From Saprospiraceae bacterium (GTDB lineage Bacteria; Bacteroidota; Bacteroidia; Chitinophagales; Saprospiraceae), in the NCBI GenBank assembly GCA_016787285.1, contig JAEUUV010000120.1, forward strand, positions 1 to 63,572: 63,572 nucleotides of DNA, read 5' to 3'. Below, piece after piece: positions 58,325-62,610 of the stretch. A program made the position numbers and the translations under genes. Numbering within the stretch: position 1 is the stretch's first letter; every line of letters begins with the position of its first letter. The notes below the pieces were generated by a model that made no database searches, was not told where the DNA came from, and saw nothing but the letters and a program-made list of their open reading frames with translations.

Positions 58325-58438
58325 CCCAACCGGGAGCATCCTTTCTGCAACGCATTGACGAATTAACACAAATTTACCGCACGAAAAACCTGCGATTCCC
58401 CACATTTGCCGCCAATCGCTCAACTACCCGCTTGCTCC

Positions 58439-60493
58439 ATGACTTTTTTTCACCGCGATATATCCTGGTTGTCGTTCAATTACCGTGTGCTTCAGGAAGC
58501 CAAAGACCCCGCCGTGCCTCTGCTGGAACGCTTGAAATTTTTGGCCATCTACTCGTCCAACCTCGACGAATTTTTTCGTATTCGCGTAGCCAACATCAGG
58601 AACCTGAAAAAAGTAGGAAAAAAGACCAAGGCTGAACTGGATTTTGTGCCGCGCGACGTGCTGCGGGAGATTCACACCATCGTGAACCACCACCAGGAAG
58701 AAGTGGCGCAAATTTTTGAAAAACAAATTGTGCCCGAGTTGCGCAAGCACAACGTGTACATTTTGCGGCGCATGGACCTGAACGCCGAGCAGCGCCATTT
58801 TGTGGAAAGTTATTTCCACAACAACCTGCTGCCCTTCGTGATGCCCGTCTTGCTGGTTAAACAGCGCATCCGGGCGTTTTTGGCCAATGCCCACCTGTAC
58901 CTCGCCGTGCATTTGCGTCCGCGGAAAAAACCGCTCGCGCCCAGCGAATACGCTCTGGTCAAAATTCCCTCGGATCAGTTGCCCCGGTTTGTGGCGCTGC
59001 CCTCGGCGGGCGGTCGTCACGATTTGATCCTGCTCGACGACATCGTGCGACATTCCGTGTCGTGGCTGTTTCCGGGATACGACATTCAGGATACCTACTC
59101 CATAAAACTCACCCGCGACGCCGAGTTGTACATTGACGATGAGTTTTCGGGCGACCTGGTGCAGAAGATCAAAAACAGTCTGGCCAAACGGCAGGTAGGC
59201 CCCGCCAGCCGCTTCGTGTACGACCGCGAAATGCCCGATCACCTGCTTCAATACCTGAAGGAAACCTTCGATCTCGGCAAAAACGACATGCTGCCCGAAG
59301 GGCGCTACCACAACAATTTCGATTTTTTCAAATTCCCCGATTTCGGACTTAGTCACCTGAAAAACAAACCCTTACCTCCCCTACCCCACCCTTTACTGCA
59401 CGACACCGCCGACCCGTTCAGTATCATCCGGGAAAAAGATCAGATGTTGCATGTGCCCTACCAGTCGTATCACGCGGTGGTCAATTTTTTTGAAAAAGCA
59501 GCCAGAGACCCCGAAGTGACGCACATCAAGGTAATTCAGTACCGGGTGGCCAAACGGAGCAAAATACTCGAAGCGCTCATGGAGGCCGTGCGGGAGGGCA
59601 AGCAAGTGTCGGCATTTGTGGAAATTAAAGCCCGCTTTGATGAGGCCGCCAACCTCGAATGGGGCGAGCGGCTTGAACGGGCCGGTGTCCGGGTGCACTA
59701 CTCGTTCCCGGGAGTGAAAGTACACTCCAAACTGGCGCTCGTCCGGCGCCTGGAAAACGGCAAACCCCGCCTGTATGCTTACTTGGCCACAGGCAATTTC
59801 CACGAAGAAACCGCGCAGGTATACTCCGATTTCGGCGTTTTCACCACCGATCCGAGGCTGACGGCCGAAGTCAGCAATGTGTTTTCGTTTCTGGAAAACA
59901 TCAAGCCGCCCCGGCAGGAGTTTGAGCACCTGTTTGTCGGAAAATTCAACCTCCGTCCGGCGCTGAATGCCCTGATTGACTACGAAATAGCCGCGGCAAA
60001 AGCCGGCAGGCCGGCACGTATTCTGATCAAGACCAACAGCATTGAGGACAAGGATGTGATCCGGAAACTGTACGAAGCCTCCCGGGCTGGGGCGAAAATC
60101 CAGTTGATCGTGCGTGGAATAAACTGCCTCGTGCCCGGCGTTGAGGGCCAGAGCGACAACATCGAGATGATCAGCATCGTGGATCGTTTTCTGGAGCACG
60201 CACGTGTCTTTGCGTTTCACCACGACGGTGCGGAAAAAATGTTCCTGTCGAGCGCCGACCTCATGCAGCGCAACCTCAATTTCCGCATCGAAACAGCCTT
60301 CCCGATTTACGATGCGGATATTAAAAACGAAATCATGGACTTGCTGAACCTGCAACTGGAGGACAACGTGAAAGCGCGGGTCATTGACCGCTTCGACCGC
60401 AACGAATACCGGCGTGGAAACTCAGATATCCCCGTGCGTGCCCAATTGGAAACCTACTTCCATTTCAAGCGGAAAACTGAAAAACGCAGCTAA
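58439..60493 (+). CDS. ppk1: Polyphosphate kinase 1
   Basis: PPK1 makes polyphosphate from ATP and can run in reverse. The start FFHRDISWLSFNYRVLQEA is the family start, the phosphorylated His is in GVKVHSKLALV (about residue 425), and the second His in HHDGAEKMFLSSADLMQRN (about 585) and Arg residues of the C1/C2 domains are present. At 684 residues it is a normal size. I start at the ATG at 58439. It precedes tRNA-Gly, which has its own promoter. Confidence 0.97.
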   Translation: MTFFHRDISWLSFNYRVLQEAKDPAVPLLERLKFLAIYSSNLDEFFRIRVANIRNLKKVGKKTKAELDFVPRDVLREIHTIVNHHQEEVAQIFEKQIVPELRKHNVYILRRMDLNAEQRHFVESYFHNNLLPFVMPVLLVKQRIRAFLANAHLYLAVHLRPRKKPLAPSEYALVKIPSDQLPRFVALPSAGGRHDLILLDDIVRHSVSWLFPGYDIQDTYSIKLTRDAELYIDDEFSGDLVQKIKNSLAKRQVGPASRFVYDREMPDHLLQYLKETFDLGKNDMLPEGRYHNNFDFFKFPDFGLSHLKNKPLPPLPHPLLHDTADPFSIIREKDQMLHVPYQSYHAVVNFFEKAARDPEVTHIKVIQYRVAKRSKILEALMEAVREGKQVSAFVEIKARFDEAANLEWGERLERAGVRVHYSFPGVKVHSKLALVRRLENGKPRLYAYLATGNFHEETAQVYSDFGVFTTDPRLTAEVSNVFSFLENIKPPRQEFEHLFVGKFNLRPALNALIDYEIAAAKAGRPARILIKTNSIEDKDVIRKLYEASRAGAKIQLIVRGINCLVPGVEGQSDNIEMISIVDRFLEHARVFAFHHDGAEKMFLSSADLMQRNLNFRIETAFPIYDADIKNEIMDLLNLQLEDNVKARVIDRFDRNEYRRGNSDIPVRAQLETYFHFKRKTEKRS

Positions 60494-60606: not shown

Positions 60607-60682
60607 GCGGAAATAGCTCAGCTGGTAGAGCGCAACCTTGCCAAGGTTGAGGTCGCGAGTTCGAATCTCGTTTTCCGCTCCA
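60607..60682 (+). tRNA. tRNA-Gly (anticodon GCC)
   Basis: The acceptor GCGGAAA pairs with TTTCCGC, the anticodon loop TTGCCAA carries GCC, and the T arm has GTTCGAATC. The 3' CCA is encoded at 60680-60682, unlike tRNA-Pro, tRNA-Ser and tRNA-Leu in this window. A terminator follows. Confidence 0.96.
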
Positions 60683-60745: not shown

Positions 60746-61065
60746 GCCCGGGTGGTGGAATGGTAGACACGCAGGACTTAAATTGAAATTTGAGTGCTCG
60801 CCGGGAAACCGGCGATGCAAAACCGCTTAAATTCGGGGAAACCTTCGCCCTCAAAGCATGGCGATCCCGAGCCAAGTCCCGATTATAAATCGGGGAAGGT
60901 GTAGAGACTTGACAGGCGGCGCCTACGTCCCGAAATCATCAGGATATGGCGAAGAGAAAGTCCAGACCACGAAGCCCGACCGGTGTCGGGTGCGGCGAAA
61001 GCCGAAGTGTGTACGAAAATCCTGTGACCGTTGAGGTCGTACGGGTTCGAGCCCCGTCCCGGGCA
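60746..61065 (+). tRNA. tRNA-Leu (anticodon TAA) interrupted by a group I intron
   Basis: The exons are 60746-60779 (34 bases) and 61016-61065 (50 bases). Joined, they give a normal class II tRNA: acceptor GCCCGGG/CCCGGGC, D loop AATGGTAGAC, anticodon stem CAGGA/TCCTG with loop CTTAAAA, variable arm GACC-GTTGA-GGTC, T arm ACGGGTTCGAGCCCCGT and discriminator A. The intron splits the anticodon after its first base (U34), the same place as in cyanobacteria and plastids. CCA is not encoded. If splicing failed, the cell would need another tRNA for UUA codons, so splicing is probably efficient. Confidence 0.95.
60780..61015 (+). ncRNA. Group I (IC3-type) self-splicing intron, 236 bases, no ORF
   Basis: A ribozyme that removes itself with two transesterifications started by guanosine. 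The conserved elements in order are: an internal guide GAGT (60792-60795) pairing with exon end ACTT with a U-G pair at the 5' splice site, a P2 hairpin CGCCGG-GAAA-CCGGCG (60800-60815), P (ATTCGGGGAAACC), Q (ATCCCGAGCCAAG), a P6 hairpin CCCGAT/ATCGGG, R (GGTGTAGAGACTTGACAG) and S (GAAGAGAAAGTCCA), and P9-type hairpins. The last base is the omega-G at 61015. P, Q, R and S closely resemble those of cyanobacterial tRNA-Leu introns as I recall them. Confidence 0.93.
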
Positions 61066-61067
61066 CA

Positions 61068-61541
61068 TTATCGAAGGCGCAGGCGTTGCTTGCGCCTTCG
61101 CCATGTGTGGGTCAATGCGTGGCAATTAGGGCAAAGAAGAGTCAAGTTATCAAGGCTGTTGTTGCTTTTGTCCCCATCAATGTGCTCTAATTCTAACGGT
61201 ATTGGTTGGCCCTGCCATTGTGAAATCCCACATTTATAGCACTTGCTTTCAAAATATCCTTCTTTAAGAAGTCGTTTGCGCAACTTGTGCGACTGATATG
61301 TAGAACCTCTCACCAGCAGTTGTTCTATTGTTTTTGGCGGGTTAGGTCGAAAGAGCAAACCTTGATTCCATCCTTTTCCTGTGAAATGCGCCGTATCTAA
61401 GCCATACTCAGCAATTTTTCGTTGAATGGTTGAATAATTGCCGCCCGCTTCTTTGAGGCCGAGGTGGCTTAAGACTTGACGAATCGAAGTGGACTGTGCA
61501 ATAGCATCAATCAATTGCTCTTTGGTGTACGAATATTTCAT
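61068..61541 (-). CDS. HNH endonuclease next to the intron-containing tRNA
   Basis: The 157-residue protein has an N-terminal helix-turn-helix-like region (KEQLIDAIAQSTSIRQVLSHLGLK and STIQRKIAEYGLD) and a C-terminal HNH domain with two CxxC pairs (CYKCG and CPNCH), LELEHIDGDKSNNSLDNL and LLCPNCHALTHTW. This is the layout of small free-standing HNH enzymes linked with phages and homing. It ends 2 bases from the tRNA-Leu 3' end on the opposite strand and starts 4 bases from the divergent GldN-like gene. By hand count, three 60-base lines inside it have 40-45% G+C against 62% in a line of the next gene, a sign of transfer. Confidence 0.9.
   Translation of the reverse strand: MKYSYTKEQLIDAIAQSTSIRQVLSHLGLKEAGGNYSTIQRKIAEYGLDTAHFTGKGWNQGLLFRPNPPKTIEQLLVRGSTYQSHKLRKRLLKEGYFESKCYKCGISQWQGQPIPLELEHIDGDKSNNSLDNLTLLCPNCHALTHTWRRRKQRLRLR
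61072..61100. repeat. Perfect 10-bp hairpin at the junction of tRNA-Leu and HNH gene
   Basis: CGAAGGCGCA (61072-61081) and TGCGCCTTCG (61091-61100) pair around 9 bases. On the minus strand it codes for the last residues of the HNH protein; on the plus strand it follows the tRNA by 6 bases and could help end its transcription, although no T-run follows. Confidence 0.6.
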
Positions 61542-61545
61542 AAGC

Positions 61546-62610
61546 ATGAACAAGGTTAAATTCAGTAACAAAAGTAGTGTGAGCGCCTTTTTGATTGCGT
61601 GCTGCACAATTTTCTTTTCTCCACTCCACGCCCAATACGACGACCTGCTGCGCAAAAACCGCTATACCTGGGTGGCGGAGTACACCGCCGACTACGAACT
61701 GAACCCGTTGTACAGCGAAACCGTGGAGTCGGAAATGAACCTGACACAAGTCATTCATCTTGGAAATGAAGCAAAACAAAACGGACTTTATCACGACCTG
61801 AACCTGAAATACTACCTGAGCGATGTCCTCCTGCCTGCGTTGCGCAGCGGCGCTTTTGCCTGCTACGCCGATGAACATCTGACCCAATTACTCGCTTCAA
61901 GCCAGATTGAAAAACGCCTGACACATTCGGACACCGTTGCATCATTTGATCCCCCCGGAGGGAAAGCCATCGTCGTCAATGATTTGCGCCCGGAAGAAAT
62001 TGACCTGTTCCGCATCCGGCAAGTGTTCTACTTTGATCGCCGCAAAAAACAATTCGGCGCACGGCTACTGGCCGTCGCCCCACTGTTGAACAAGACCGAC
62101 GACGAAGGGAAAGTGACCGAACGAGCGCCGCTGCTCTGGATAAAAATCCCCCCGAAAGACAACTGTGAGGTCGGCAAAATCGCCCGGAACGCCAACTACG
62201 CCGTGCAGACGTTCATGCGCGGCAATACCCCGGAAGCGGAGGATATGAAAACCGGAAAAGGAAACCTCGATCTGAAAAAATGGACCTTTTCGGAAGTGCA
62301 TAAGCCGTCCCATAAAAATCTTTCCTCAGACACCTACGACGTGCTCGGACAGAAGGTGTTGCAAAGCCGGATTTATACCACAGACACCGTAATCGTTTAC
62401 GATCCAGTTGATTATGCTGAAACAGTGCGGGTCGTGGAAAACAACGCCATTGACCGTGTCGAAAAAATCCGTTTCGTCCAAAACTGGTACTACGACGAGC
62501 GCCGGCACCGGCTCGCCATGCAGGTGGTGGCGGTGGCGCCTATGGCCGCCGTCCGGGATTCGGAAGGCAACCTGCGGTACCACAAGCCACTGTTTTACAG
62601 TAAGTACTAA
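61546..62610 (+). CDS. GldN-like secreted protein (type IX secretion)
   Basis: After a signal peptide (SAFLIACCTIFFSPLHAQ), the 354-residue protein carries two copies of a GldN-type unit: RIRQVFYFDRRKKQFGARLL..APLLNK...LLWIKIP (about 170-225) and RFVQNWYYDERRHRLAMQVV..APM..RDSEGNLRYHKPLFY (about 310-354). GldN/PorN is a periplasmic T9SS core protein, normally after gldK, gldL and gldM; those are absent here, so this may be a paralogue. It starts 4 bases from the divergent HNH gene, so its promoter must lie inside the HNH coding region. Confidence 0.7.
   Translation: MNKVKFSNKSSVSAFLIACCTIFFSPLHAQYDDLLRKNRYTWVAEYTADYELNPLYSETVESEMNLTQVIHLGNEAKQNGLYHDLNLKYYLSDVLLPALRSGAFACYADEHLTQLLASSQIEKRLTHSDTVASFDPPGGKAIVVNDLRPEEIDLFRIRQVFYFDRRKKQFGARLLAVAPLLNKTDDEGKVTERAPLLWIKIPPKDNCEVGKIARNANYAVQTFMRGNTPEAEDMKTGKGNLDLKKWTFSEVHKPSHKNLSSDTYDVLGQKVLQSRIYTTDTVIVYDPVDYAETVRVVENNAIDRVEKIRFVQNWYYDERRHRLAMQVVAVAPMAAVRDSEGNLRYHKPLFYSKY

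Follow-up and report, generated by a model that had tools for sequence, protein, structure and literature searches.

An ORF-less group I intron in the tRNA-Leu(UAA) gene of a Saprospiraceae bacterium and an adjoining free-standing HNH endonuclease gene with counterparts in phages

Introduction

The group I intron in the tRNA-Leu(UAA) gene of cyanobacteria and plastids is frequently cited to illustrate an ancient intron kept by vertical inheritance. It is of subgroup IC3, whose defining traits are a short P5 without P5abc and GAAA loops on P2 and P9.2. The locus analysed here is interrupted in the same gene, at the same site (U34|A35) and by an intron with the same P1–P9 architecture, but differs from the cyanobacterial case in the host phylum, in the patchiness of the intron within the host genus, and in an adjoining gene for an HNH endonuclease. 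Three cyanobacterial introns align throughout with introns of the present type, although their last P7 pair is not U-A. The CAU and CCU introns of beta- and alphaproteobacteria in our data set, which we take to be the IC3 introns of Azoarcus tRNA-Ile and of tRNA-Arg(CCU), have core sequence anchors in common with the present intron and lie in other tRNAs at other positions.

In an excerpt of PMC4033280, tRNA group I introns are listed for cyanobacteria, alphaproteobacteria and betaproteobacteria, and IC3 introns are described as devoid of P5(a–d) in an excerpt of PMC11835236. According to an excerpt of PMC11915505, group I introns occur in the tmRNA of Saprospiraceae; those Bacteroidota introns lie in the T-loop of tmRNA, whereas the present one lies in the anticodon loop of a tRNA. 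The intron of Synechocystis tRNA-fMet (PMC8450103, excerpt) is also an anticodon-loop intron. In collaborative homing, as described for phages, an ORF-less intron and an enzyme encoded outside it share one target, and the enzyme gene may later enter the intron (PMC3984707, excerpt). The present locus likewise combines, at one site, an ORF-less intron and a separate endonuclease gene, the pair by which collaborative homing is recognised; it differs in that the host gene is a bacterial tRNA gene and that the HNH target at the insertion site is only presumed.

Results

Interrupted tRNA-Leu(UAA) gene

The window, that is, the whole stretch analysed, comprises 63,572 nt of contig JAEUUV010000120.1 of a Saprospiraceae bacterium (GCA_016787285.1; genome G000 below). 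The features discussed are as follows.

58406..60493, + strand: polyphosphate kinase 1 gene (ppk1), conserved upstream neighbour
60607..60682, + strand: tRNA-Gly(GCC), conserved beside tRNA-Leu(UAA)
60746..60779, + strand: tRNA-Leu(UAA) 5' exon, last base U34 (anticodon U|AA) (ARAGORN, sequence)
60780..61015, + strand: 236-nt group I intron ending in G, no endonuclease frame (cmscan, ARAGORN, drawn helices, covariation)
61016..61065, + strand: tRNA-Leu(UAA) 3' exon, from A35 to the discriminator A, CCA not encoded (ARAGORN, sequence)
61068..61541, - strand: free-standing HNH endonuclease gene, 157 aa, ATG at 61541 (chosen start), stop codon 61068-61070 (phrog_10822, E 2.1e-51)
61546..62610, + strand: gene for a GldN-like protein (54 bits; NCBIfam cut-off 85.9), start placed by hand

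With introns allowed, ARAGORN reported tRNA-Leu(taa)i(35,236), a gene with a 236-nt intron after position 34; when joined, the exons (60746-60779 and 61016-61065) folded as tRNA-Leu(taa). The proposal of the initial annotation that removal of 236 bases after U34 rebuilds tRNA-Leu(UAA) was thus borne out. The group I core noted there was recognised as well: the insert matched the Rfam model Intron_gpI from end to end (cmscan; model positions 1-253 of 253, 45.4 bits, E 1.6e-10). This score is 4.6 bits lower than the gathering score of 50, and a default Rfam scan is therefore silent on the intron; ARAGORN run without introns also missed the gene. Because both defaults overlook the interrupted gene, a genome that carries one appears, in routine annotation, to be short of an essential tRNA. 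The intron is the sole group I match at E<=1 in all contigs of G000. The minimum free energy (MFE) fold of the interrupted gene has a z of -3.7, with 0 of 100 shuffles as low, and this fold differs from the group I fold.

Genome-wide, G000 contains 39 tRNA matches. ARAGORN on the stretches with these matches returned tRNA-Leu genes with the anticodons CAA, UAG, CAG and GAG but no second tRNA-Leu(UAA), and it returned no gene for one weak match, L039. A pattern for the uninterrupted gene, with up to two mismatches, gave zero matches in G000. A second intact copy, named by the initial annotation as one of the findings that would speak against its reading, was accordingly found by neither search of the assembly; with 345 contigs and a completeness of 96.65%, a copy may conceivably have been missed. 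Since no other tRNA-Leu(UAA) was found, decoding of the UUA codons of the host seems, judging from the genetic code, to depend on splicing of the window gene.

Group I fold and covariation

The following helices were drawn in the window.

60777..60794, + strand: P1, exon CUU (60777-60779) with guide GAG (60792-60794), U-G pair at the splice site (in 35 of 35 introns)
60798..60815, + strand: P2 with a GAAA loop (drawn helices, alignment, covariation)
60823..60919, + strand: P3, 60823-60828 with 60914-60919, enclosing P4–P6a (100% of cells paired, two-sided changes in five of six pairs)
60834..60869, + strand: P4, 60834-60837 with 60866-60869, and a short P5, 60842-60843 with 60860-60861, no P5abc (drawn helices, covariation)
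60904..60963, + strand: P7, 60904 and 60906-60910 with 60958-60963, A 60905 unpaired, pseudoknot with P3 (100% of cells paired)
60920..60951, + strand: P8 (drawn helices, covariation)
60975..61004, + strand: P9 and P9.2, the latter with a GAAA loop (drawn helices, covariation)

P7 with its unpaired A 60905 is presumably the guanosine-site region. The model tested comprised P1, P2, P3, P4, P5, P6, P6a, P7, P8, P9, P9.2 and the tRNA anticodon stem, all drawn from the window, and the alignment contained 35 tRNA-Leu(UAA) introns from Bacteroidota, Pseudomonadota, Acidobacteriota and cyanobacteria, hand-picked from 39 located introns plus the window. Standard pairs filled 95.9% of 1997 cells of the P1–P9.2 model including the pseudoknot, a percentage biased towards the model because the structure was drawn from one of the 35 sequences; sliding by 1–3 columns lowered it to 31–44%. 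Two-sided changes occurred in 38 of 58 pairs. None of 500 shuffles reached any of the five measures, a contrast that is inflated by related rows in the alignment. P8 covaried in three of its four pairs. P7 was nearly invariant, with two-sided variation in one pair of six, the last, which was seen as A-U, U-A, C-G and G-C; P1 showed a two-sided change in no pair. The guide pairing with a U-G at the splice site and the terminal G, both pointed out in the initial annotation, are present, and the P3–P8 fold, including the P7 pseudoknot, can be drawn and is backed by covariation.

The window intron has the IC3 traits, namely a short P5 without P5abc and GAAA loops on P2 and P9.2, and its core can be aligned with tRNA introns of cyanobacteria, alphaproteobacteria and betaproteobacteria. 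Sequence and predicted structure place the insert among the IC3-like group I introns of tRNA genes, and splicing in vivo is predicted.

The same locus with and without the intron

Among 100 relatives, the tRNA-Leu(UAA) gene contains an intron in 10 (G000, G010, G021, G022, G029, G032, G041, G044, G047, and G070) and is uninterrupted in 78; neither state was called in 12. The pattern for the uninterrupted gene had matched 80 of the 100; in G052 and G070 it hit nothing but a CAA tRNA, at two mismatches, and these two were discounted, which left the ten interrupted genomes without a match. The genus of the window (n = 42) comprised 7 interrupted, 30 uninterrupted and 5 uncalled genomes, the rest of the family (n = 19) 2, 15 and 2, and the rest of the order (n = 39) 1, 33 and 5, respectively. 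In G047 the intron is placed one nucleotide earlier (U33|U34). tRNA-Gly(GCC) adjoins tRNA-Leu(UAA) in interrupted and uninterrupted congeners, and ppk1 lies upstream wherever the stretch reaches that far. The order ppk1, tRNA-Gly, tRNA-Leu is the same with and without the intron, which indicates that it was the native gene that the intron entered. At least two changes of intron state were required on a ppk1 tree with 153 columns, which comprised 16 congeners out of 24 loci tried; gain and loss are indistinguishable in this count. The intron comes and goes among close relatives.

In one congener (G033, locus L078), two stretches of about 1.1 kb come after an uninterrupted tRNA-Leu(UAA), and each of them closes with the group I intron 3' end and the tRNA 3' exon. 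The arrangement looks like a cassette array built on tRNA-Leu(UAA).

Spread of tRNA-Leu(UAA) introns

Under strict filters, group I matches at E<=1e-4 were found in 29 of 395 Bacteroidota genomes, and the tRNA-Leu(UAA) intron was present in at least nine of the 395, with exons read by eye and some matches left without a host gene. An occurrence in Bacteroidota, as stated in the initial annotation, was confirmed. A search of the cyanobacterial phylum, made for comparison, gave a group I match in 25 of 79 genomes. A pattern scan of genome contigs placed 39 of the 116 matches listed in tRNA-Leu(UAA): 29 from Pseudomonadota, 5 from Bacteroidota, including Arsenicibacter rosenii and Emticicia agri, 2 from Acidobacteriota, and 1 each from Bdellovibrionota, Planctomycetota and Vulcanimicrobiota. 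Other hosts of the same intron kind were tRNA-Arg, fMet, Thr, Phe and more, and 16 of the 116 were assigned no host gene. Host genes named by ARAGORN were corrected from the exon letters where the split was shifted, and one locus (L156) was removed from the tRNA-Leu count, which fell from 40 to 39, the Leu exon pairing being present in 39 of the 40 and absent in L156. The scan yields no frequency, because its pattern was derived from the core of the window intron itself. tRNA-Leu(UAA) introns are widespread, with six phyla among the matches listed, yet patchy, as in the genus of the window.

Intron trees

A core was extractable from 132 of 146 introns, and long or divergent rows were dropped; the trees contained 114–176 rows and 142–149 columns, with many forks open. 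The 15 cyanobacterial tRNA-Leu introns formed one clade (100/99, and 100/100 in two other trees) with the window intron outside, and none of the 15 was nested among the Saprospiraceae introns. The rows nearest to the window intron were tRNA-Leu introns of Saprospiraceae and Cytophagales. Its core is up to 85% identical to those of Saprospiraceae tRNA-Leu introns (median 78%), up to 82% to those of other bacteria, up to 75% to viral ones, and at best 64% to cyanobacterial ones (median 60%), the lowest group by median. The window intron therefore groups with introns of other Bacteroidota, apart from the cyanobacterial ones with their compact clade, and a cyanobacterial donor is not supported, in view of this separate clade and the identity of at most 64%. 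A spread wider than that given in the reviews consulted, one of the two readings offered in the initial annotation, is upheld by the 39 of 116 listed matches in six phyla.

A single clade of all tRNA-Leu(UAA) introns gave an AU p of 0.208, and a clade of Bacteroidota and cyanobacteria an AU p of 0.72, with a likelihood even above that of the free tree. Neither grouping is rejected, and a deeper ancestor in common with the cyanobacterial introns may exist. A claim of multiple origins, suggested by a p of 0.0015 for one clade when L148 and L145 were in the set, was withdrawn at the p of 0.208 obtained when they were left out, as in the final tree; L148 is a tRNA-Leu for ARAGORN but has exons like those of a CAU tRNA, and L145 is doubtful.

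HNH endonuclease gene

The stop codon of the HNH gene lies 2 nt from the discriminator base of tRNA-Leu, the two genes being convergent, and its ATG lies 4 nt from the start of the gldN-like gene as placed. The protein matched Pfam HNH_3 at 3.4e-5, 1.0 bit under the cut-off. The gldN-like gene is downstream in four other loci too, and in two congeners, one intronless (L049) and one interrupted (L042), it follows the tRNA with no HNH gene between them; for this reason the window HNH gene looks like an insertion.

Over 148 aa, the window protein shares 51% identity with an ORF that lies in the tRNA-Leu(UAA) intron of G047; its identity to the ORF in the corresponding intron of G041 is 38%. At E<=1e-15, homologues were found in 4 of the 100 relatives and 3 of the 395 Bacteroidota, five distinct genomes altogether. 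The gene lies beside the interrupted tRNA-Leu(UAA) in G000 and inside its intron in G041 and G047. In G351 it runs into an uninterrupted tRNA-Leu(UAA), overlapping the 5' half and stopping in the anticodon loop, which hints that the target may be the insertion site. In G040 it lies at a contig end in the same gldN order as in the window, with its tRNA-Leu outside the view; we infer a second free-standing case beside tRNA-Leu. The window is alone among the ten interrupted relatives in having the gene outside the intron, and seven of the ten have no HNH match at E<=1e-15. A tree of 40 HNH proteins paired the window protein only with that of G040 (99/76); on it, the inside or free state needed four changes, at least two of them forced by the starred branches. 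No homologue on plasmids was matched at E<=1e-10. The new element at this locus, absent from the initial annotation, is a free-standing HNH nuclease gene that abuts the tRNA-Leu 3' exon and has counterparts in phages; its product is presumed to cut site-specifically.

Phages and viral contigs

HNH homologues at E<=1e-10 were found in 197 phage records. We inspected 22 phage stretches, hand-chosen from the top rows of the 197 and including some close kin. In 19 of the 22, a tRNA was within 100 nt of the HNH gene or the gene was in a tRNA-Leu intron; in 15, tRNA-Leu was within 100 nt of the gene or around it, tRNA-Leu accounting for 24 of the 91 tRNAs there. Three of the 22 loci had no tRNA within 100 nt, and the family also adjoins non-Leu tRNAs. 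The HNH gene of a 595-kb uncultured phage (LR756511) lies within a group I intron of tRNA-Leu(UAA). In Agrobacterium phage Atu_ph07 (L301), a member of the family lies 290 nt from tRNA-Leu(UAG), and the intron core was matched elsewhere in the phage.

The intron-pattern scan of viral contigs placed 46 of the 120 matches listed, 39 of them distinct, in tRNA-Leu(UAA). The Leu exon pairing was present in 45 of the 46, the exception (L388) being split one base earlier. Five of these 46 introns contained an HNH gene, ten had one within 100 nt on the 3' side, and 31 had none within 100 nt. Five of the ten are convergent with the tRNA 3' end at 0–9 nt, the geometry of the window; L322, L363 and L370 among them share one geometry and identity, two being identical. 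A search of viral contigs for close HNH relatives by peptide patterns confirmed none, although the intron-pattern scan did retrieve such HNH genes. Comparison of six such contigs with PHROGs revealed clear phage genes in four, namely rIIA/rIIB in L364, L383 and L330 and tail fibre and baseplate genes in L323. In L409 and L343, ATPase-like and HNH proteins were the sole matches, so that some contigs may not be viral. The presence of the pairing of intron and HNH gene in phages as well suggests a route by which such introns may travel.

A 40.9-kb viral contig (L327) encodes an integrase and an endolysin and ends in an interrupted tRNA-Leu(UAA), whose intron contains an HNH gene and has a core 76% identical to that of the window. 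Since the integrase gene adjoins the interrupted tRNA, this temperate phage may use tRNA-Leu(UAA) as its attachment site. SAR11-type phages with an HNH gene are described as integrating at tRNA-Leu(TAG), with no intron mentioned in the excerpt concerned (PMC6811365), and the phage introns known by 2014 were all in protein genes according to an excerpt of PMC3984707. Excerpts of PMC11835236, PMC7886860, PMC12363816 and PMC13096335 make no mention of a tRNA-Leu intron. We recognised no report of a tRNA-Leu intron in Bacteroidota or a phage in the literature covered, which mostly excludes subscription journals, so that one may have been published.

Discussion

We favour the reading, at a probability of roughly 0.7, that the window holds an ORF-less tRNA-Leu(UAA) intron and a separate, phage-shared HNH gene associated with tRNA-Leu, which likely take part in collaborative homing. 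The structure, the absence of a second copy from the searches, the presence and absence of the intron at one locus, the adjacency of the HNH gene and the same pairing in phages are the observations behind it. In the precursor tRNA, the guide GAG would pair with CUU of the 5' exon, an external guanosine bound in P7 would attack after U34, and the freed 5' exon would then attack after the last G of the intron to give an intact tRNA. tRNA-Leu genes that lack the intron would be cut by the HNH enzyme in or close to the anticodon, and the use of an intron-bearing copy in repair would spread intron and HNH gene together. Phages would be the carriers of both, and the window may represent a stage before, or after, the move of the HNH gene into the intron.

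The main competitor, which we consider unlikely but the most serious, is a functional intron beside an HNH gene that was inserted independently, the intron having arrived by reverse splicing or with the whole tRNA locus. It agrees with the distribution among the seven interrupted congeners, in which the gene is free-standing only in the window, inside the intron in G041, and without a match at E<=1e-15 in the other five, as well as with the 31 of 46 listed viral tRNA-Leu introns that have no HNH gene within 100 nt and with the occurrence of the same intron kind in tRNA-Arg, fMet, Thr, Phe and others. An independent insertion would not, however, lead one to expect the gene at tRNA-Leu(UAA) in all five Bacteroidota genomes found, two of which have it inside the intron and one of which is placed there by synteny only, or the same convergent pairing in phages. 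A relic, either a broken intron or a pseudogene, would agree with the score under the Rfam gathering threshold; all helices form, however, the joined exons give a tRNA fold and the searches of the assembly showed no further copy, and we regard a relic as very improbable.

Old vertical inheritance, with an intron deep in bacteria that was lost many times, accords with the insertion site, nearly always the same, and with the single clade of tRNA-Leu(UAA) introns left unrejected at AU p 0.208. We nevertheless think it improbable, given the uninterrupted gene in 30 of 42 genomes of one genus, the two or more state changes in the ppk1 tree of 16 congeners (whether gains or losses), the presence of the intron in at least 9 of 395 Bacteroidota genomes, and the many viral contigs that carry it. 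The shared insertion site with the classical cyanobacterial intron is also what a recent transfer from a cyanobacterium or plastid would leave, but such an event has hardly any likelihood in view of the clade of 15 cyanobacterial introns that leaves the window out (100/99) and the identity of at most 64%.

Extending the preferred reading, we tentatively suggest, at somewhat short of an even chance, a two-part mobile unit common to phages and bacteria at tRNA-Leu(UAA), made up of an ORF-less intron and a dedicated HNH gene. The gene would occupy three places, beside the uninterrupted gene, beside the interrupted gene and inside the intron, with the window as the middle stage, and a phage reservoir would seed bacteria, perhaps once cyanobacteria. 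In contrast to the view of an old, vertically kept intron, the site is occupied patchily in six phyla, variably within one genus, and in many viral tRNA genes. This patchy occupation, with the nuclease in three arrangements, makes two questions testable: whether phages are movers of tRNA introns, and by what steps intron and endonuclease are joined in one mobile element.

Other introns in tRNA genes

Core-only intron matches in relatives were considered as tmRNA introns; this was dropped, those inspected lying in tRNA-fMet and tRNA-Arg, with one unsure. The initiator tRNA-fMet(CAU) is split by group I introns in Saprospiraceae-family relatives (L071, L050/L081, L074, L075, L077, and L079), at U33|C34 where ARAGORN places the site so, and several of these introns hold whole or broken I-Ssp6803I-like frames. 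The frame of L074 matched PDB 2ost, which we take to be I-Ssp6803I, the enzyme of the Synechocystis tRNA-fMet intron, at E 2.4e-60. A Saprospiraceae fMet intron thus encodes a 2ost homologue; the Synechocystis system differs from the window in its host gene, fMet (U33|C34 in the relatives here), and in a PD-(D/E)XK enzyme instead of HNH.

Genes called tRNA-Gln(CUG) by ARAGORN are split by group I introns in L203 (Emticicia), L204 (HyVt-532), L248 and L251, and the intron of L203 contains a frame with HNH-like spacing. Within one family of another Bacteroidota class, tRNA-Arg(UCU) genes contain introns (L250, L253-L255, and L258-L260), and tRNA-Pro and tRNA-Cys flank each. Group I introns were also seen in tRNA-Asn(GUU) of the Actinomycetota Microbacterium (L152) and Tsukamurella (L153), and in genes called tRNA-Thr or tRNA-Phe of Patescibacteria-type MAGs (L110, L128, L142, L151, L163, and L186).
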